Below are positions 1,556 through 34,776 of a stretch of 64,000 nt of DNA, piece after piece (within the stretch, counting starts at the first letter, position 1; each line of letters starts with the position of its first letter). This DNA comes from Corynebacterium lubricantis DSM 45231. Its GTDB lineage: Bacteria; Actinomycetota; Actinomycetes; Mycobacteriales; Mycobacteriaceae. The notes beneath the pieces were generated by a model that was given only the letters and a program-made list of their open reading frames with translations, made no database searches and was not told the origin of the DNA. The position numbers and the translations under genes were made by a program. The stretch lies in NCBI RefSeq assembly GCF_000379425.1, contig NZ_KB902182.1, forward strand, positions 1 to 64,000, given 5' to 3'.

Positions 1556-1667
1556 GTTGAAGGGGAGTAGTTCACACCCGCTTTTTAGTGGCGATGAATG
1601 GTCGACATCCTGGCGGCAGGTCCGCCCGGCCATCAGTCCGTGGCAACGGGCGAACGAGACCTTCTAT
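1556..1667 (+). promoter_or_regulatory. yybP-ykoY-type (manganese-sensing) riboswitch upstream of a CDF transporter
   Basis: The leader contains the hallmark blocks of the yybP-ykoY motif in order: GAAGGGGAGTAG (1559-1570), GGTCGACATCCTGG (1600-1613) and GAGACCTTC (1656-1664). The outer GAAGG and CCTTC can close the basal helix, and the GC-rich middle can form the other arms. This class binds Mn2+ and controls manganese efflux or homeostasis genes. A promoter -10-like TAGAAT lies at 1516-1521. The element ends about 55 bases before the start codon of the transporter. Control could act on transcription or translation; the aptamer alone does not show which. Confidence 0.82.
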
Positions 1668-1722
1668 CCAATCCCGCGCTTGGGTAGACGTTGCCCGAGC
1701 CCCGAATGTAAAAGGCCTCATC

Positions 1723-4643: not shown

Positions 4644-4688
4644 CAGCCAGCTGTTGCGGGCGTGCATTACCTCCCTGACAATGAGGGC

Positions 4689-6104
4689 ATGCACATTGAG
4701 CAGCAGCACCTCAATCCCCTGCTTCAAGTCCTCCGTATCGCCTTCGTTGCCGTCCCTGAGTCAGAAAAAGTGACAATCAAGTTGAGCTACGGCGAACGCA
4801 ACTGGGGTTTCCAACTCGGGTGCCGTGATGCCCATGGAAATCGCCTCGAAGTTTCGAACCGGATGCATTCACTGGTGCGCGAGCCCGTCAAGACTCTTCA
4901 CCATGCCCTTGCACCCACCAAGCAGCACACCATTGTTGTGACCTTGGATATCGACGGCAATTGGAAAGTCACCTCGGTTCCAGGAAATCCCACTTACGTC
5001 ACGCTCCGCGACCTGCCCATCAAGGATGTGCCGCAGCCACTTCCAGAGCCTTCGCAAGAGCGTATCGACGAGCTCACGTCGCTCTGGGAGAGCCACTCTC
5101 AGTTTTATAGAACTTTTGGTGGGGCAACGGACGAGCAGCTAGAGGACCTTGCAAAGGTGTTGGGGCAGCCAGTGCCTCCTGAATTGGCCGCGTTCCTGCG
5201 CCTCTCGAATGGTCCTGAACTTGATTCCTTCGACAACGTCGAAGAGGAAAGCTTGAGCGACTATTGGTCGTTATCGCGCACGGAAATCATCGCTCGGGAT
5301 TACACAAACAGCACCGATGTTGCCCTCGCCCCGTCATTCAATAACGTTGGCTACACGAACGGGCGCGAAGGAGCCACTCAGCTGCGCCAAAGGCACCCCG
5401 GGTGGATCCCCTTCGCAAATGACTCTGACGGAAACTACCTGGCCATCGATACAGTTCCGGGGCCAACTGGTACCCCAGGCCAAGTTATTAATTTCGGTGA
5501 TGAGGAATTTGAGGGACCCACACTGATCGCGGACTCACTAATCGATTACCTGGCGGGGCGTTTGACTCCCAAGGTGAAGTTGCCCAAAAAGCAATTCACC
5601 GTGAAATCCGAAGCACCATTTGAGCCAGCGAGTGTGCCTTCCGGCACTCAGGAATTGGTGGTCGGGGAAGCTCCGAGCGTCCAGGTAGACGAGCTAAAAG
5701 GACACGAGTTGTTCAGCCTTTATCTTTTTGACATCCGCGACGTTGATCTCACCGGAATCACTGATCTCCCACTCCAGGAACTCGTGCTCTCAGGCATTCC
5801 AGATGTGGACCTGGCACCACTTGCTGGCCATCCCACCCTGCGTATTCTCAAGCTTCGCCAGCTCGATTCCATTCGCTCTCCCGAAGTCTTAGCCGAGCTC
5901 CCCGCTTTGGAAACCGTGACGCTTGAATTCACTGATGAAGCAACTGAGTGGCCGGTCATCGAGGCACTGTCGCGCAGCACAACTCTCGCAGGAGTCGATT
6001 TCAGATGGCAGACGAAGCTCAGCATAGAGGATCTCAACAAACGTGCGGTTGCTCTCGCCTCGGGCGATGCACCCAATATGATGACCGAGACTGGGCGGAT
6101 TTAG
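4689..6104 (+). CDS. SUKH (SMI1/KNR4)-domain protein with C-terminal leucine-rich repeats, copy 1
   Basis: This 471-aa protein has three parts. An N-terminal module (1-110) is unknown. Residues about 143-290 form a SMI1/KNR4 (SUKH) domain, with LGQPVPPELAAFLRLSNG and later WIPFANDSDGNYLAIDT and GQVINFGDEEFEGP. Residues about 325-460 are leucine-rich-repeat-like, with units such as LPLQELVLSGIPDVDLAPL and HPTLRILKLRQLDS. SUKH domains are known as immunity proteins against contact-dependent or secreted nuclease toxins, and also occur in regulatory proteins. No signal peptide is seen, so it is cytosolic. ATG 4689 is preferred over an upstream ATG at 4662 because the paralogue starts with the same codons. 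No toxin gene is adjacent. Confidence 0.75.
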   Translation: MHIEQQHLNPLLQVLRIAFVAVPESEKVTIKLSYGERNWGFQLGCRDAHGNRLEVSNRMHSLVREPVKTLHHALAPTKQHTIVVTLDIDGNWKVTSVPGNPTYVTLRDLPIKDVPQPLPEPSQERIDELTSLWESHSQFYRTFGGATDEQLEDLAKVLGQPVPPELAAFLRLSNGPELDSFDNVEEESLSDYWSLSRTEIIARDYTNSTDVALAPSFNNVGYTNGREGATQLRQRHPGWIPFANDSDGNYLAIDTVPGPTGTPGQVINFGDEEFEGPTLIADSLIDYLAGRLTPKVKLPKKQFTVKSEAPFEPASVPSGTQELVVGEAPSVQVDELKGHELFSLYLFDIRDVDLTGITDLPLQELVLSGIPDVDLAPLAGHPTLRILKLRQLDSIRSPEVLAELPALETVTLEFTDEATEWPVIEALSRSTTLAGVDFRWQTKLSIEDLNKRAVALASGDAPNMMTETGRI

Positions 6105-6165: not shown

Positions 6166-7536
6166 ATGCACATTGAGCAGCAGCACCTCAATCCCCTGCT
6201 TCAAACCTTTCAAACCGCGCTAGCTGGCGCTCCGGAAGTGGTATCAGCAACGATACATCTCGATCTCACCAAGAACTCCCTCGGATTTGATAGTAAGTTT
6301 TTTGAACATTTAGACGACGCCGTCGACGCGCTTTACGCTGCCATCGAACCAACCAGCAAGATCTCAATCGATCTCTCGCTGGACAGGAATGGTTCCTGGA
6401 TGCTCAGTACTACGCAAGCCAATCCTTCTTACATTCACCTGCGCAATCTTCAAATTTCCGATGTACCAAGTACACTTCCACAACCAACGCAAGAGCGTAT
6501 CGACGAGTTTTCAGCCCTCTGGGAAGAACAGGCGCATCTCTACACTCCCGCAGTGCCTGCAACCCGCGAGGAGCTAGCACAACTGGAAACTTCTGTGGGA
6601 CAGCCTGTGCCACCGGAAATGGTCGCGTTTCTGCACCTCTCTAACGGGGCGCGGCACAGTTCATTCGACCAAGATCGTGGAACCACCACCTTAATTTGGG
6701 ACATCCTGGATACTCAACAGGTCGCCGATCGCCACCAAGAACTGGTTGCAGTCGCGCTCAATCCGAGCTTCACTTCGGTCGGATATACACGTGGCATTGA
6801 AGGGGCGACACAACTTCGTCAGGACCATGCCGGGTGGATTCCTTTTGCCCACGATTTTGGTGGAAACTACCTCGGCATCGACACGGCTCCCGGCCCTCGT
6901 GGCACAGCAGGACAGGTGTTCCTCTTTGGTCGCGATGAATTCGAAGGGCCCCTCGTCATCGCCGATTCTCTGGTCGATTTCTTCACCGGGCGATCCTCTC
7001 AAGCAACAGAGCAGCGCGAAAAACTCTTTGCCCGCCACACAGCTGGTCGCTTCAATCCGGCTGACATTCCGGACGGGACCCAAGAGCTCATCCTTAGCAA
7101 TCACACCGGCATCGACCTCAATGCTCTGTCCGGGCACCACATCAAAAGCCTCACCCTGAGAAATACCGCCGAGCTAGATCTCGAGGGAATCGCGCAACTC
7201 CCCCTCCAAGAGCTTGACCTTGCCAACGTTCCTACCCTGGACCTGGAACCCCTTGCGGGGCATCCCACCCTGCGCATTCATACGCTAAGCGAAATCGACT
7301 CTGTGGGCTCCCCCGAAGTCGTGGCTGGCCTGCCCACTCTGGAGACCGTGACCATCGAAGGAATCGGTGCGACTTCCGAATCGGCACTCCTTGAAGCTTT
7401 GTCGCGCAATCCATCTCTTGCCAGTGTGAGTTTCGGGCGCAGCACCGGGCTCAGCCTTGCAGAACTCCACGCACGCGCGCGCATTCTCGATCCCAACTAC
7501 GCACCGAAAGTGTGGAGCAAACAAGGACAGCTCTAG
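6166..7536 (+). CDS. SUKH (SMI1/KNR4)-domain protein with C-terminal leucine-rich repeats, copy 2
   Basis: This 456-aa tandem paralogue of the preceding gene has the same three-part layout: N-terminal module, SUKH domain with VGQPVPPEMVAFLHLSNG and WIPFAHDFGGNYLGIDT, and leucine-rich C-terminus with LPLQELDLANVPTLDLEPL. Its first 39 bases (6166-6204) are identical to 4689-4727, yet protein similarity over the rest is much lower, especially before the SUKH domain. The 61-base gap to the first copy is short enough for a shared transcript, though it ends with a possible promoter-like ATATACTTT. As with copy 1, the role as an immunity or regulatory protein is inferred from the SUKH domain only. 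Confidence 0.75.
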   Translation: MHIEQQHLNPLLQTFQTALAGAPEVVSATIHLDLTKNSLGFDSKFFEHLDDAVDALYAAIEPTSKISIDLSLDRNGSWMLSTTQANPSYIHLRNLQISDVPSTLPQPTQERIDEFSALWEEQAHLYTPAVPATREELAQLETSVGQPVPPEMVAFLHLSNGARHSSFDQDRGTTTLIWDILDTQQVADRHQELVAVALNPSFTSVGYTRGIEGATQLRQDHAGWIPFAHDFGGNYLGIDTAPGPRGTAGQVFLFGRDEFEGPLVIADSLVDFFTGRSSQATEQREKLFARHTAGRFNPADIPDGTQELILSNHTGIDLNALSGHHIKSLTLRNTAELDLEGIAQLPLQELDLANVPTLDLEPLAGHPTLRIHTLSEIDSVGSPEVVAGLPTLETVTIEGIGATSESALLEALSRNPSLASVSFGRSTGLSLAELHARARILDPNYAPKVWSKQGQL

Positions 7537-13210: not shown

Positions 13211-15529
13211 GTGAATCTAAAGATCATTGGCAACGATATTGCGCGCAGCAAACTGATCACCATTACCATGGTGCTCTTTGTGGCAGCCGCATCCACGCTG
13301 GTCTCGCTCACCGCAATCCTGTCCATGAATCTTTCCGGCGCGATTGACACGCTCATGATCAACGCGCAGACCCCACACTTCCTCCAAATGCACACCGGGC
13401 AGCTCGACCAGGAAAGATTAAAAGATTTCTCGCTTGACGACGACCGCGTGGACTCCTTCCAAGTCCAAGAATTTCTCAACCTGGAAGGCAGCCACATTGT
13501 CATCGGAGACAACTCACTGGCCGACAACGTCCAAGACAACGGAGTGGTCACCCAAAACCAAGACTTCGACTTCTTACTTGACCTTGACGACCAGCCGATC
13601 CAACCCCAAGACGGCGAGCTCTACGTTCCCCTTGCTTAAATGAAAGACGGGACCGCCTCTGTAGGAGATACTGCCACCGTCGCAGGTCAGGAATTTAGCG
13701 TGGCTGGCTTTCTTCGCGACTCGCAGATGAATTCCACGCTCTCGTCGTCGAAACGCTTCCTTATCAGCGACCGTAACTTTGAGGCCCTGCGCGAGGCCGG
13801 CACCGTGGAATACCTGATTGAATTTCTCCTGCACGATACGGCGGATCTCGGCGCCTTTGAGGCTGCCTATGCCACGAACGGCTTTGAGGCGAACGGCCCG
13901 ACGATCACCTATCCCCTGTTTCGGATGATTAACGCGTTTTCGGACGGCATGATGATCCTGATTCTGATTTCGGTCAGCCTCATGGTGGTCATTGTGGCGT
14001 TCCTGTGTATTCGATTTACGCTGCTGACGAAGATTGATCAGGGCACGCGCGAGATCGGCGTGATGAAGGCGATTGGTCTGCGAATTCGCGATATTAAGCA
14101 GATCTACCTGGCGAAATACGTCGCCATCGCCGTGGCCGGAGCGCTGTTGGGTTACCTTCTCGCGCTGGTATTCCAGGCACCGCTGCGCGAAAATATTCGG
14201 CTGTATATGGGCACGAGCGCCAACGATGGGCTTGCCTCGCTGGTGGGTGTCGCGGGCATCCTCCTGGTGCTGCTGGCGATTGTTGGCTACGTCAATCACG
14301 TGCTCAACCGCCTGCGGAAGATCTCGCCGACCGAGGCCATTCGCTTCGGCGACGTGGCCGAGAAGGTCTCGCCGACGCGGGTGCTCAAGCTTTCCCAGAA
14401 CCGAGTGCTCAGTGCCAATGCGTTCCTTGGGCTGAAGGATCTTCTGACCAGGAAGAAGCTCTACGTCACGATGTTTTTGATCCTGGTCATTTCCACGATC
14501 ATCATGACGATTCCTCAGAACATTGCCACCACGATGTCGGATAAGAGCTTCGTGCAATACCTTGGCATCGGCCAAAGCGACATCATTGTCACCCTGCAGC
14601 AGTCCGACGACATTGCGGGCGCGACCGCCGAGATCGAAAAAGCCGTTTCTGCCGACAGCGAGGTCGATGAGTACGTCGCACTGTTGACCAAGGGCTACAC
14701 CACCGAGGCCGCCGATGGCCAACCCTAAACGATCAAGATCGAACTCGGCAACCACGAAGTCTTTCCCGTTGCCTACCTCAACGGCGCGGCGCCTCACTTG
14801 GAGACCGACATCGCGCTGTCCACAATCAACGCCAACGAGCTAGGTAAATCCGTCGGCGATCCGCTGACCATTTCCACCGGCTCCCACACGAGGGACCTGA
14901 CCGTCTCCGGTATCTACTCCGACGTGACCAACGGCGGCAAAACGGCCAAGGCAGCCTTTACCGACCAGGACACCGACGTACTCAGAAGCATGATCTGCCT
15001 AACCACCACCGACGACTCCCTCGTTGAGACGAAGGCCCAGTCTCTTGAGGACCAGTTCAGCTTTGCCAAGGTGGCCAGCGTGAATACGTATACCCAGCAG
15101 ATGTTCGGCGACACAATCTCGGCCGTGAAAACAGTCGCTCAGGCAGCGCTTGCCGTCGCCATCGGCCTGACGCTTTTGATCACCCTGCTCTTCGTGCAGA
15201 TGATCGTGGTCAAGGACCGCCGCGAGATCGCCATCTTAAAATCCACCGGCTTCACCACCGCAGACATCACCGCGCAGTACCTCACGCGCACCCTCGTGGT
15301 CACCGTCGTTGCGATCCTGCTCGGCATCATCCTCGCCAGCACTCTCGGCGCCTGGCTTGCCGGGCTTTTCCTCGCCCAAATCGGAGCCACATCGGTTCGC
15401 TTCATCGCCAACCCATGGCTGGTGTACCTGCTCTACCCGGCTCTCCTCGCCATTACCGTCACACTCGCCACTCCGCTGGGCATGCGCAGCGCCAAGCAGA
15501 TCACCATTGCCAACAACATAAGGGAATGA
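13211..15529 (+). pseudogene. MacB/FtsX-type ABC transporter permease gene with two in-frame stops
   Basis: From GTG 13211 the three consecutive open stretches lie in the same frame and are separated only by TAA at 13637-13639 (codon 143) and TAA at 14726-14728 (codon 506). Read through, they make one 772-aa permease: an N-terminal helix, an extracytoplasmic domain, three helices near the middle with a cytosolic TREIGVMKAIGLR segment, a second anchor and extracytoplasmic domain, and three final helices with KDRREIAILKSTGF. The last two segments are paired FtsX domains. No frameshift is needed. The intact ATPase follows 1 base after the stop. Two nonsense codons should abolish the transporter unless they are suppressed. 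Confidence 0.8.
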
Positions 15530-15530
15530 C

Positions 15531-16286
15531 ATGAGCACTTTTATCATCGAGGCCCGCGACATCCGGAAATCGTTTAGCAGCGACGGCGAACCCAACGTGG
15601 TGCTCAACAACTTCTCGCTCACCATCGCGCTGGGCGAATTCGTAGCCATCATGGGCCCCTCGGGTTCCGGCAAGTCCACGCTACTCTTCGCCCTCAGTGG
15701 CATTGACACGATAGATAGCGGAGAGGTGCTTTTCGACGATAAGAACCTCGCCACCGCCTCGGAGAACGAACTCGCCGACCTACGCCGCGAGCAGATGGGC
15801 TTCGTGTTCCAGCAACCCACGATGCTGAAGAACCTAAACATCCTAGACAACATCATTTTGCCCTCAATGAATACGAGGCGCTCCGACCGGGATTTGATCG
15901 TTGAGGAGGCCCGCTCGATTATGGCGGATCTCAGCATCTCGCACCTAGAAGACCGCGAGATTACCCAGACCTCTGGTGGCGAACTCCAACGCGCAGCGAT
16001 CGCCCGGGCACTGATGGGCAGCCCTAAGGTGATCTTCGGCGATGAGCCCACAGGCGCACTGAACACGAAAACCGCCGACGAGATCATGGAGGCGTTCGAG
16101 CAGATCAACCAGTCCGGCACTACCGTTGTGTTGGTGACTCACGACGCGCGCGTGGCTTCCCGCGCAGGCCGCGTTGTGTTTATGCGTGATGGGAAGATTG
16201 CTGAGGATGTGCTGCTTTCGGAAGGTTTGTCGCTGGATGAGCGCAGGGATGCAGTGGCGCGGCAGATGAATGGGTTGGGGATTTAA
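15531..16286 (+). CDS. ABC transporter ATP-binding protein (MacB/LolD type, 251 aa)
   Basis: All catalytic motifs are present: Walker A GPSGSGKST (about 43-51), Q-loop FVFQQPTM, signature SGGELQRAAIARALMG, Walker B VIFGDEPTGALN and H-loop VLVTHDARV. The spacing and the EPTGAL sequence place it with the MacB/LolD/FtsE exporters, whose permeases carry FtsX domains. It begins one base after the end of the permease reading frame, so the two were translated together. As the permease is split by stop codons, this ATPase may now be an orphan. The usual substrates of such exporters are antimicrobial peptides or lipoproteins; none is indicated here. Confidence 0.9.
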   Translation: MSTFIIEARDIRKSFSSDGEPNVVLNNFSLTIALGEFVAIMGPSGSGKSTLLFALSGIDTIDSGEVLFDDKNLATASENELADLRREQMGFVFQQPTMLKNLNILDNIILPSMNTRRSDRDLIVEEARSIMADLSISHLEDREITQTSGGELQRAAIARALMGSPKVIFGDEPTGALNTKTADEIMEAFEQINQSGTTVVLVTHDARVASRAGRVVFMRDGKIAEDVLLSEGLSLDERRDAVARQMNGLGI

Positions 16287-17066: not shown

Positions 17067-17072
17067 CATTGG

Positions 17073-17145
17073 TACCCCGTACGGGATTTGAACCCGTGTT
17101 ACCGCCGTGAGAGGGCGACGTCCTAGGCCGCTAGACGAACGGGGC
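17073..17145 (-). tRNA. tRNA-Glu (anticodon CUC), copy 2
   Basis: The gene is base-for-base the same as copy 1 at 1357-1429: acceptor GCCCCGT/ACGGGGT, anticodon loop CTCTCAC and T-arm ACGGGTTTGAACCCGT. It lies 26 bases after tRNA-Gln on the same strand and 270 bases downstream of gltX. In C. glutamicum I recall tRNA-Glu and tRNA-Gln beside gltX, so this is the expected ancestral position. Confidence 0.95.
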
Positions 17146-17415: not shown

Positions 17416-18897
17416 TTAAGCTTCAGCCGTGTAAGGCGTCTGCTCGCGGGCAGCCTTCAGGCGCGCCAGGGTGGATTCGCGGCCCAAAAGCTCCATGGAC
17501 TCAAACAGCGGTGGAGAAATAGCCTCACCCGAGATGCCCACACGCAGGGCGCCGTAGGCCACGCGAGGCTTGAGCTCGAGATCGTCGATAAGCGCCTTGG
17601 ACAGTGCCGCCTCGATGTTCTCGGTGGTCCACTCCCCGACCCCCTCGAGCGCTGCCATGCCCACCTCGAGAGGCTGAATCGCAGCCTCCTTGAGGTTCTT
17701 CTTTGCGGCCTTGGGATCCAGCACGATGTCCTCGTCGTCGGTGACAAGGAACTTCAGCAGGCCGTAGGCCTCGGAAAGCGTCTTGATGCGGGTCTGCACG
17801 AGGTCCGCTGCGATGGTGAACTTCTCGTCCGGGTAATCGGCTGGGAAGTCGGTGTACTCGCTCAAGTAATCGCGTAGGCGCTGCTTGAAGTCGGCTGGCT
17901 CGAGCAGACGAATCTGGTCCGCGTTGATCGCTTCGAGCTTCTTCTGATCGAATCGTGCGGGGTTACCCAGAACGTCCTTGACGTCGAAGGCTGCGACGAA
18001 CTCGTCGACGGAGAAGATGTCCTGATCGGCAGAGAGCGACCAGCCCAACAGTGCGAGGTAGTTGATCATGCCCTCGGGGATGATGCCGTTGTCGCGGTGG
18101 TTGAAGAGGTTGGATTCAGGGTCGCGCTTGGACAGCTTCTTGTTGCCCTGGCCCATCACGAATGGCAGGTGCGCAAACTGCGGGGTGAAATCGGTCACGC
18201 CGATGCGCTGCAGTGCCTCGTAGAGTGCGAGCTGGCGTGGCGTGGAGGACAGCAGGTCCTCGCCGCGCAGGACGTGGGTGATCTGCATCAGCGCGTCGTC
18301 GACAGGGTTGACCAACGTGTACAAAGGCGCACCGTTGGAGCGGGCAACCACGAAGTCAGGCTGGGTCTCCGGCTTGAACTCCATCTCGCCGCGCACCAGG
18401 TCGGTCCACGCCCAAGTCTTGTGTGGCATGCGCAGGCGCCACACCGGCTGGCGGCCCTCAGCCTCATAGGTCGCGATCTGCTCTGCGGTGAGGTCGCGGT
18501 CGAAGTTGTCGTAGCCCAGCTGTGGGTCACGGCCAGCAGCCTTGTGGCGCTCGATGACTTCCTCGTTGGTGGAGTACGCCGGGTAGACCTCGCCTGCATC
18601 TTTCAGCTTCTGCAGGATATCCGCGTAGATGTCCATGCGCTGCGACTGACGGTAAGGGGCGTGCGGGCCACCCTTTTCCACGCCTTCATCCCACTCGAGG
18701 TTCAGCCACTCAAGGGCATCCACGATGGCCTTGTAGGAGTCCTCGGAGTCACGTGCAGCATCGGTATCTTCGATGCGGAAGACCAGCTTGCCACCGGTGT
18801 GGCGGGCATAGGCCCAATTGAACAATGCGGTGCGCACCAGGCCAACGTGCGGGGTTCCAGTGGGTGATGGGCAGAATCGTACGCGTACTTCAGTCAT
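17416..18897 (-). CDS. gltX: Glutamyl-tRNA synthetase (probably non-discriminating)
   Basis: The 493-aa enzyme starts at ATG 18897 as [20 protein letters not shown], with the class I HIGH-type motif PHVGL and the KMSKS-type motif KLSKRD near residue 250. The C-terminal half is the anticodon-binding helical domain. The reading frame extends upstream, but the HIGH region then would not be N-terminal. It charges tRNA-Glu and, because the window encodes GatA, GatB and GatC, presumably also tRNA-Gln. It lies next to tRNA-Gln and tRNA-Glu on the same strand. Confidence 0.97.
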
Positions 18898-19044
18898 GCG
18901 CCCTATGGTACAACCCCGGGCCTGCGCATTCTGCGCCAGCTCGCGTTTTCCATCAGCGATATTCCCAGAAGCAATAACAAACCTTTGATTGATTCTGCGC
19001 CCCTGTGGCATTGAGCCGATCAATGCGCGCTAGACTTCTGTTCC

Positions 19045-33776: not shown

Positions 33777-34691
33777 TCAGCACACTTGCTCGTGATCCTG
33801 GTGTCCAGGTTGCTCAATCTGAATCGTCGAGTGGTTGATCCCCAGTTCGCGGAGGCGCTGCTGCGCCTCATCCAGCAACGGACCGCTGGGTACCTCGCCG
33901 TCGACGACGAGGTGGCAGGTGGCCAAGGCCTCAGATCCGCTGACCGACCAGACATGAAGATCATGCACTGCATCGACGTGAGGGATGTCGCTTAACGACG
34001 ATTCAATCTCGCCCACCTCGAATCCGGCCGGGACCTTATCCAGCAGCACATCCACGGAGGTCCGCAGAAGCTGCAGCGCACGCGGCAACACGAGTGCTGC
34101 GATGATCAAGGATGCGATGGTGTCCGCCGCTGTAAAACCGGTGAAGTGAATGACCACGGCCGCGATAATGACGGCGATCGATCCGAGCATGTCCGTGAGC
34201 ACATGTAGAAATGCACCCTCAACGTTAAGTGAGTTCTTGCGCTGACGCGACAATACCCACGCCGAGGCCAGATTGGCTAGCAAACCGATCACGGCGATCC
34301 AGCCCATCATGGCTGTGTCGATGGGGGTGTGCGAGTTCAAGCGCATGATGGCGGCAACGACGATCCAGACGGCCACCACGGCCACCGTCAACGCATTGAC
34401 TGCGGCAGCAAGCGCCTCCACTCCCCGGTACCCATAGGTCGCCTTCGAGGTGGCGGTCTTGCGTCCGATGAGAACTGCGATCACGGCGATGATCAGCCCC
34501 GTCGCGTCCGAGAGCATGTGCATGGCATCTGCCATCAGCGCCAGCGAACCAGAAATCCAGCCACCGATGAGTTCGGCGAAGAAAATCGTGCCAGTAATAG
34601 TCAACGCAGTAATCAGCGCGCGCAGAGACGCGGTCTGCGGGTCGATGCCATGATCATGGCCATGATCATGCGTGTGGCTGTGCGTGTGCAT
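33777..34691 (-). CDS. CDF-family zinc exporter (ZitB/CzcD type, 304 aa)
   Basis: ATG 34691 starts with a His-rich tail MHTHSHTHDHGHDHG, typical of zinc-exporting cation diffusion facilitators, which is absent from the CDF protein at 1723-2637. TM2 has HMLSDATG with the H-x3-D pair for zinc, and TM5 has HVLTDMLG with a second H-x3-D. The C-terminal cytosolic domain contains DIPHVDAVHDLHVWSVSGSE with the usual metal-binding histidines, ending in a His/Cys-containing tail. It should export zinc. The frame runs upstream of the ATG but without a membrane segment, so it was not used. Confidence 0.93.
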   Translation of the reverse strand: MHTHSHTHDHGHDHGIDPQTASLRALITALTITGTIFFAELIGGWISGSLALMADAMHMLSDATGLIIAVIAVLIGRKTATSKATYGYRGVEALAAAVNALTVAVVAVWIVVAAIMRLNSHTPIDTAMMGWIAVIGLLANLASAWVLSRQRKNSLNVEGAFLHVLTDMLGSIAVIIAAVVIHFTGFTAADTIASLIIAALVLPRALQLLRTSVDVLLDKVPAGFEVGEIESSLSDIPHVDAVHDLHVWSVSGSEALATCHLVVDGEVPSGPLLDEAQQRLRELGINHSTIQIEQPGHQDHEQVC

Positions 34692-34751
34692 GCCCTCACC
34701 ATACCGCAAAACTCGGCTTATTGAAAACAAATTGAAAACATGGTGGCAAAA

Positions 34752-34776
34752 CAAAAGCCCAGGTAAAAACCTGGGC
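34752..34776 (-). terminator. Terminator downstream of ilvC
   Basis: GCCCAGGT (34757-34764) pairs with ACCTGGGC (34769-34776). On the minus strand it is followed by TTTTGTTTTG. It ends the ilvBNC operon. Confidence 0.88.

Follow-up and report, generated by a model that had tools for sequence, protein, structure and literature searches.

The analysed window is a stretch of 64,000 nucleotides from Corynebacterium lubricantis DSM 45231 (contig NZ_KB902182.1, positions 1 to 64,000). On its forward strand, a gene at 1723-2637 encodes a cation diffusion facilitator (CDF) of 304 residues with an EN-HD A-site, a predicted Mn2+ exporter. Upstream of the CDF start codon, an ATG at 1723, direct reading of the window places three blocks: GAAGGGGAGTAG at 1559-1570, GGTCGACATCC at 1600-1610 and GAGACCTTC at 1656-1664. 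A sequence-only reading had called these blocks conserved parts of the CDF leader; they are found at these positions and recur beyond chance. The leader is preceded on the same strand by a predicted extended -10 promoter element, TGG-TAGACT (1542-1550), from which the RNA would start at approximately 1557-1560. GAAGG, which forms the 5' strand of the switch helix P1.1 described below, has a TANNNT element 14-17 nt ahead of it in 22 of the 27 distinct upstream regions compared (raw count). Because of this placement of the -10 element, an RNA start near P1.1 is probable.

The CDF matches PF01545 with 160 bits (cut-off 26.6) and ZT_dimer with 44.7 bits (cut-off 26.7). In an alignment to E. coli YiiP, the ligand residues D45, D49, H153 and D157 (numbering from the accessible part of PMC5703985) correspond to E, N, H and D in the window CDF. 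The metal site thus consists of E-x3-N in TM2 and H-x3-D in TM5. A D-x3-S site in TM2 had been proposed, but the alignment gives E and N, and the D and S in question do not fall at the metal-site positions. Among 46 homologues, which were selected by a TM2 search motif, EN is present in all 46 and HD in 43, with TM5 left unresolved by the script in the other three (L029, L056 and L060). The EN-HD quartet corresponds to CDF clade 6, which is associated mainly with Mn and Fe2+, and also with Zn and Cd, as far as the accessible part of PMC5703985 describes it. EmfA of R. etli and Brucella possibly belongs to the same clade, judging from parts of PMC5703985 and PMC9936198. The MntE equivalog NF052621 is the best of ten NCBIfam matches and yet scores 251.3 bits against a cut-off of 500; since this is only half of the cut-off, we do not name the protein MntE. 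A second CDF on the minus strand of the window (33777-34754) has, by eye, the HD-HD style of zinc exporters.

The locus lies between two identical direct repeats of 74 bp, at 1356-1429 and 17072-17145, each containing a complete tRNA-Glu(CTC) gene. Next to the second copy are a tRNA-Gln gene and, at 17416-19023, a gene named gltX-like by eye. The repeats are 15.6 kb apart, and this interval, which includes the riboswitch and the CDF, may represent an inserted or duplicated segment; no integrase was found among the 13 inner proteins scanned, a subset of the inner frames. The repeats suggest the accessory segment proposed earlier and do not go further than that. Beside the first tRNA-Glu copy, the first 33-36 bases (1430-1465) have 89% matches in two further genomes of the genus, and are possibly a conserved tRNA gene promoter. 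The segment has other features. Two neighbouring FtsX-type permease pieces at 13640-14728 and 14798-15529, which may represent either two genes or a single interrupted one, are followed by an ABC ATPase (15531-16286). Tandem SMI1/KNR4 (SUKH-1) paralogues with tails that by eye are leucine-repeat-like occupy 4662-6104 and 6166-7536.

The blocks are not confined to this genome. Of 201 genomes of the genus, 28 carry the spaced pattern GGGGAGTAG-N-TCGACA-N-GAGACC, at 29 places in all, while a control search with the pattern read backward returned none in the same 201. At 25 of the 29 places, the pattern lies directly upstream of a CDF of the window type (by eye, first 60 residues), and at three it lies upstream of MntP (PF02659, 154-161 bits). 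One place, L023, is an intragenic match that was rejected as chance. Named Corynebacterium records carry leaders and CDFs of this kind too; L187, which resembles L014 of the genus set, is an example. The leader is not universal, as many of 30 homologous CDF loci have no such blocks upstream.

The check put forward for the initial assignment, a match to the Rfam model RF00080, came out negative, an outcome that had been named beforehand as a refutation. With Rfam 15, the leader is unmatched both at the gathering score and at E up to 10; it does not reach 45 bits, a value that serves as a detection cut-off and not as a structural feature. The source genome contains two matches only, with E of 5 and 8, both elsewhere. 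Across the 201 genus genomes, none reaches the cut-off, and RF00080 was not listed for any of 24 other genus leader loci scanned directly (4 + 20). However, the leader of E. coli K-12 mntP scores 41.6 bits, below the cut-off as well, and for the E. coli alx leader the model gives no entry at E up to 10. RF00080 is therefore too insensitive to provide a fair refutation. The model is not blind, as two of 14 well-known control genomes pass the cut-off. In C. glutamicum, a match is listed at E up to 10 and absent at E up to 1.

The 2 E. coli leaders and 4 of the genus loci just mentioned were scanned together with 14 loci from the phylum: none of these 20 reaches the RF00080 cut-off, and a match is listed for five (L087, L094, L099, L108 and L110). 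Sub-threshold matches with E up to 1 are present in 25 of the 201 genus genomes. Our own covariance model, R1, confirms none of these 25 loci, with a single match at E 0.23 (L076). Another of the sub-threshold loci, L065, has by eye the look of an aptamer with a terminator and is not listed by R1 at E up to 1. For the most part, the current Rfam model fails to detect the manganese riboswitches of the phylum Actinomycetota.

R1 was built from an alignment (A1) of 26 distinct genus leaders. It places a four-way junction aptamer at 1559-1664 of the forward strand with 86.1 bits, the window's own sequence being among the 26. The switch helix P1.1 has the 5' strand GAAGG (1559-1563) paired with CCUUC (1660-1664), as indicated by RNAalifold, covariation and folding. 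It closes an internal loop, L1, in which GGGGAGUA lies opposite GAGA. The 5' side, GGAGUA (1564-1569), is identical in 83 of 83 rows, in part because the search pattern set it: for loci found by the pattern, the letters of L1, TCGACA and GAGACC were fixed by the search, and their conservation counts only for the loci found by the model (L090-L118). The 3' side of L1, GAGA, together with the CCUUC strand (1656-1664), is complementary to the ribosome-binding region. Above L1, P1.2 pairs GUUC (1570-1573) with GAAC (1652-1655) and covaries with GCUC/GAGC.

Two hairpin arms complete the junction. P2 spans 1578-1591 (1578-1582 with 1587-1591) and P4 spans 1636-1651 (1636-1641 with 1646-1651). When segments of the 26 leaders were folded, every leader gave a P2 stem of at least 4 pairs, and 21 gave a P4 stem of that length with no interruption. 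Between them, P3.1 (1599-1603 with 1628-1632), supported by RNAalifold and covariation, encloses loop L3 (1604-1611, GACAUCCU) and P3.2 (1612-1616 with 1622-1626). In the leaders of three genus CDFs, L049, L055 and L056, the P2 arm is very short or missing while L1, L3 and P1.1 are intact; these possibly constitute a three-arm version of the aptamer. L049 and L055 were excluded from A1 and match R1.

Applied unaided to the 26 leaders, RNAalifold recovers P1.1, P1.2, P3.1 and P3.2. In an alignment of 83 matches, 16 of the 20 pairs show changes on both sides. Pairing cells in this alignment amount to 95.8%, compared with 78.2% for shuffles (0 of 500 reach the observed value) and 26-52% for slid partners; as the alignment was fitted to the model structure, the paired percentage is biased toward the model. 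The set includes 38 of 80 named loci, apparent chance loci and repeats having been dropped, and the matching of 82 of 82 sources is no gauge of the truth rate of the pattern. Taken as a single sequence, the leader folds no better than its shuffles (z -0.54), and P1.1 is scarcely formed in the plain-fold ensemble of the window.

R1 contains no E. coli sequence. It nevertheless finds two E. coli leaders, that of mntP with 39.8 bits (E 2.2e-8) and that of alx with 26.3 bits (E 7.6e-5); the E-values are rough. Both are described as manganese-sensing riboswitches in the consulted part of PMC9603457, and the window leader is thereby connected to validated members of the yybP-ykoY class. That the blocks reflect chance or coding resemblance, with no structured RNA behind them, would agree with the missing RF00080 match and the unremarkable single-sequence fold. 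It is refuted by the recurrence within the genus against an empty backward control, by the covariation and by the R1 matches to the E. coli riboswitches, and we assign it practically no probability.

Over the phylum, R1 returns matches in 37 of 296 genomes at E up to 0.1. In named genomes, scanning 77 frames downstream of the pattern matches listed identified GDT1/UPF0016 in at least 22, VIT1 in at least 18, Na_Ca_ex in at least 14, MntP in at least 7, CDF in at least 6 and TerC in at least 2. These frames were picked by a hydrophobicity rule from the 80 named-genome loci listed, three of which had no usable frame. P-type ATPases lie downstream of the aptamer at two loci of the phylum. The aptamer is thus found ahead of Mn2+ transport genes, the usual targets of Mn2+ riboswitches and their relatives. 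The VIT1 frames (at least 18 of 77 among the matches listed; for example L122, L129, L141 and L160) come, by eye, mostly from Arthrobacter and Microbacteriaceae, and some (for example L128, L145 and L161) open with a ferritin-like stretch. The claim of a manganese aptamer of yybP-ykoY type before the CDF, which would make the CDF a probable Mn exporter, is well supported by the R1 homology, the covariation and the target genes. We regard the leader at 1559-1722 as very probably a genuine RNA switch that senses manganese and belongs to a known class.

The Mn2+ ligand of the class is A48 of ACA48UACU in the X. oryzae structure and A41 in L. lactis (PMC6754395, consulted in part). The corresponding adenosine of L3 is A1607 in the window, and an A occupies this position in 82 of 82 lettered rows. 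Most genus leaders have UCGACAUACU as their L3 and the window has UCGACAUCCU, in which C1609 replaces an A; this is unique among the 26 genus leaders. Across the wider relatives, the position is A in 57 rows, C in 9, G in 9 and U in 7. As eight other rows of the 82 share the C, it need not impair function.

These residues bear on the identity of the metal. An aptamer of Mn2+-sensing descent could by now respond to another metal, such as Fe2+, and be matched to an iron-exporting CDF. The link of clade 6 CDFs to Fe2+ as well as Mn transport (PMC5703985, in the part consulted) would fit such a change, as would the C at 1609. But the adenosine that specifies Mn2+ is constant, position 1609 varies among the wider relatives, and the aptamer lies three times in the genus ahead of the manganese efflux pump MntP. 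We consider a switch of metal very improbable. Mn2+ itself would be the ligand of the leader aptamer, as we infer from these features, and the direction of switching discussed below is likewise derived by inference.

The region between the aptamer and the CDF contains a hairpin predicted by folding (1678-1686 with 1692-1700; 1678-1700 on the forward strand), the linker of the expression platform, and the Shine-Dalgarno region AAAGGCCUC at 1711-1719. In an open aptamer, the latter could pair with 1656-1663 (7 of 8 positions) or with 1562-1565 (CCUC). The aptamer ends in GAGACCUUC, a sequence complementary to the region where the ribosome binds. Four leaders (L004, L007, L020 and L022) carry the complement AAGGUCUC 3 nt before the start codon. 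The window has AAGGCCUC, with one mismatch (A-C), and a second group of leaders has ACCGAAGG. In L038, ACCGAAGGUAUC and GAUACCUUCGGU form 12 of 12 pairs. The aptamer of this locus (L038:20-131) has GAUACC for GAGACC and yet a perfect 12-pair complement of the ribosome site, so that the OFF pairing is preserved despite the changed letter in the aptamer.

We compared this complementarity with shuffled sequences in 20 of the 26 leaders, leaving out the near-duplicates L010, L015, L018, L025, L026 and L027. The start codons were chosen by script. In 15 of the 20, the P1.1 3' strand complements the 24 nt that precede the start codon to a degree equalled by no more than 15 of 300 shuffles; for the window, 1 of 300 shuffles is as good. 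The complement is absent in the other five (L011, L016, L021, L029 and L031), and L016, L029 and L031 have, by eye, U-rich terminator-like stretches in its place. In another duplex test, which often picked the adjacent linker hairpin and not the ribosome site, the pairing was equalled by no more than 5 of 500 shuffles for 13 of 26 leaders, and by no more than 25 of 500 for 22 of 26.

Folding calculations for the window point in the same direction. The predicted probability that GGCCUC of the Shine-Dalgarno region is unpaired rises from 0.14-0.29 in the free ensemble to 0.72-0.93 when the aptamer is forced. The gain varies with the chosen 3' end, from 0.37 to 0.93 (1722), 0.07 to 0.69 (1735), 0.21 to 0.80 (1752) and 0.18 to 0.44 (1780). 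A mixture of partners for 1711-1719 tempers the result further: the free ensemble has about 2.8 expected pairs to the aptamer interior, 1.3 to the P1.1 3' strand and 1.2 to the 5' strand. At minimum energy, 1716-1719 is paired with 1562-1565, on the side of the P1.1 5' strand. Calculated with neither Mn2+ nor tertiary contacts, the forced ON and OFF states have -58.6 and -59.8 kcal/mol, and the free minimum has -62.0 kcal/mol. Pairing of either P1.1 strand with the Shine-Dalgarno region excludes the closed aptamer.

The predicted pairings are consistent with a translational ON switch as the likely mechanism. Transcription would begin at about the first base of P1.1. At low Mn2+, the aptamer would stay open, and its strands, chiefly the P1.1 3' strand GAGACCUU, would pair with the Shine-Dalgarno region and mask it; the exact OFF pairing in the window could involve any of several candidate partners. 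Rising Mn2+ would bridge L1 and L3, with A1607 as ligand, and stabilise P1.1. The ribosome site would then be freed, the CDF translated and Mn2+, its presumed substrate, exported.

It is also possible that the Mn2+ aptamer acts on transcription, through a terminator and antiterminator or through Rho, and not on ribosome access. Terminator-like sequences with a P1.1 complement are seen by eye in the relatives L092 and L100 and in L016 of the genus, E. coli mntP is reportedly under Rho-dependent control (PMC11647493), and the OFF pairing partners in the window are mixed. Against this, 1664-1723 contains no hairpin followed by a U-run in the window (by eye), and the P1.1 complement, which stops 3 nt short of the start codon, shares bases with the Shine-Dalgarno region. 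We regard control of transcription as rather unlikely here. Control of translation is favoured, and we are confident overall that a compact, GC-rich Mn2+ riboswitch of the yybP-ykoY class at 1559-1722 governs translation of the CDF at 1723-2637.

The class itself is not new in Corynebacterium. An older Rfam model gave yybP-ykoY matches in C. glutamicum with 43.7, 49.1 (upstream of terC) and 49.9 bits (PMC3890552), and C. pseudotuberculosis has predicted elements as well (PMC3917459, PMC3890534); the motif is classed as widely distributed (PMC3766115), each source having been consulted in part. In a search that most subscription journals lay outside, no title or abstract opening dealt with a Corynebacterium CDF under a Mn2+ riboswitch, and no paper paired yybP-ykoY with VIT1. 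The present analysis adds the branch linked to CDFs, the mimicry at the Shine-Dalgarno region and the failure of today's Rfam model on members of the phylum, none of them the subject of a title or abstract opening in that search.

Since a negative RF00080 result does not equal absence, Mn2+ regulons of Actinomycetota are probably under-annotated. A broader picture, which we hold to be evenly balanced between true and false, combines two elements. The phylum would harbour a large Mn2+ riboswitch regulon unseen by Rfam, including unusual targets (VIT1-type, Na/Ca-exchanger type and clade 6 CDF). In Corynebacterium, aptamer and ribosome site would be fused in one minimal device, the Shine-Dalgarno region copying the 5' strand of the switch helix. 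If the fused device is real, Mn2+ binding directly determines if the ribosome site is concealed by the mRNA that carries it. The mimicry would offer a small, testable design for a Mn2+-induced switch in C. glutamicum. In addition, the RNA switch assigns a probable role in manganese efflux to a Corynebacterium CDF subtype, which the protein sequence alone does not.

By sequence and structure, the leader appears to be a genuine Mn2+ riboswitch, ordinary in kind. It shares with the E. coli mntP and alx switches the layout of P1.1-L1-P1.2, P2, P3.1-L3-P3.2 and P4. L1 (GGGGAGUA/GAGA) is identical, and the kinds of target gene are alike. L3 reads UCAACAUACU in E. coli mntP, to be compared with the UCGACAUACU and UCGACAUCCU forms given above for most genus leaders and the window. 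Both the window and E. coli mntP fall below the Rfam 15 RF00080 cut-off. The C. glutamicum sites detected with RF00080 belong to the same class and genus, but the only gene named for them in the consulted part of PMC3890552 is terC (cg2157), not a CDF. The window CDF has the A-site quartet of the mainly Mn- and Fe2+-linked clade 6; it differs from that clade in being actinobacterial and placed under a Mn2+ riboswitch, and is known here from its sequence. In the window and in most of the genus leaders tested, the complement of the switch helix is the Shine-Dalgarno region and not a terminator, a difference from the known yybP-ykoY riboswitches.
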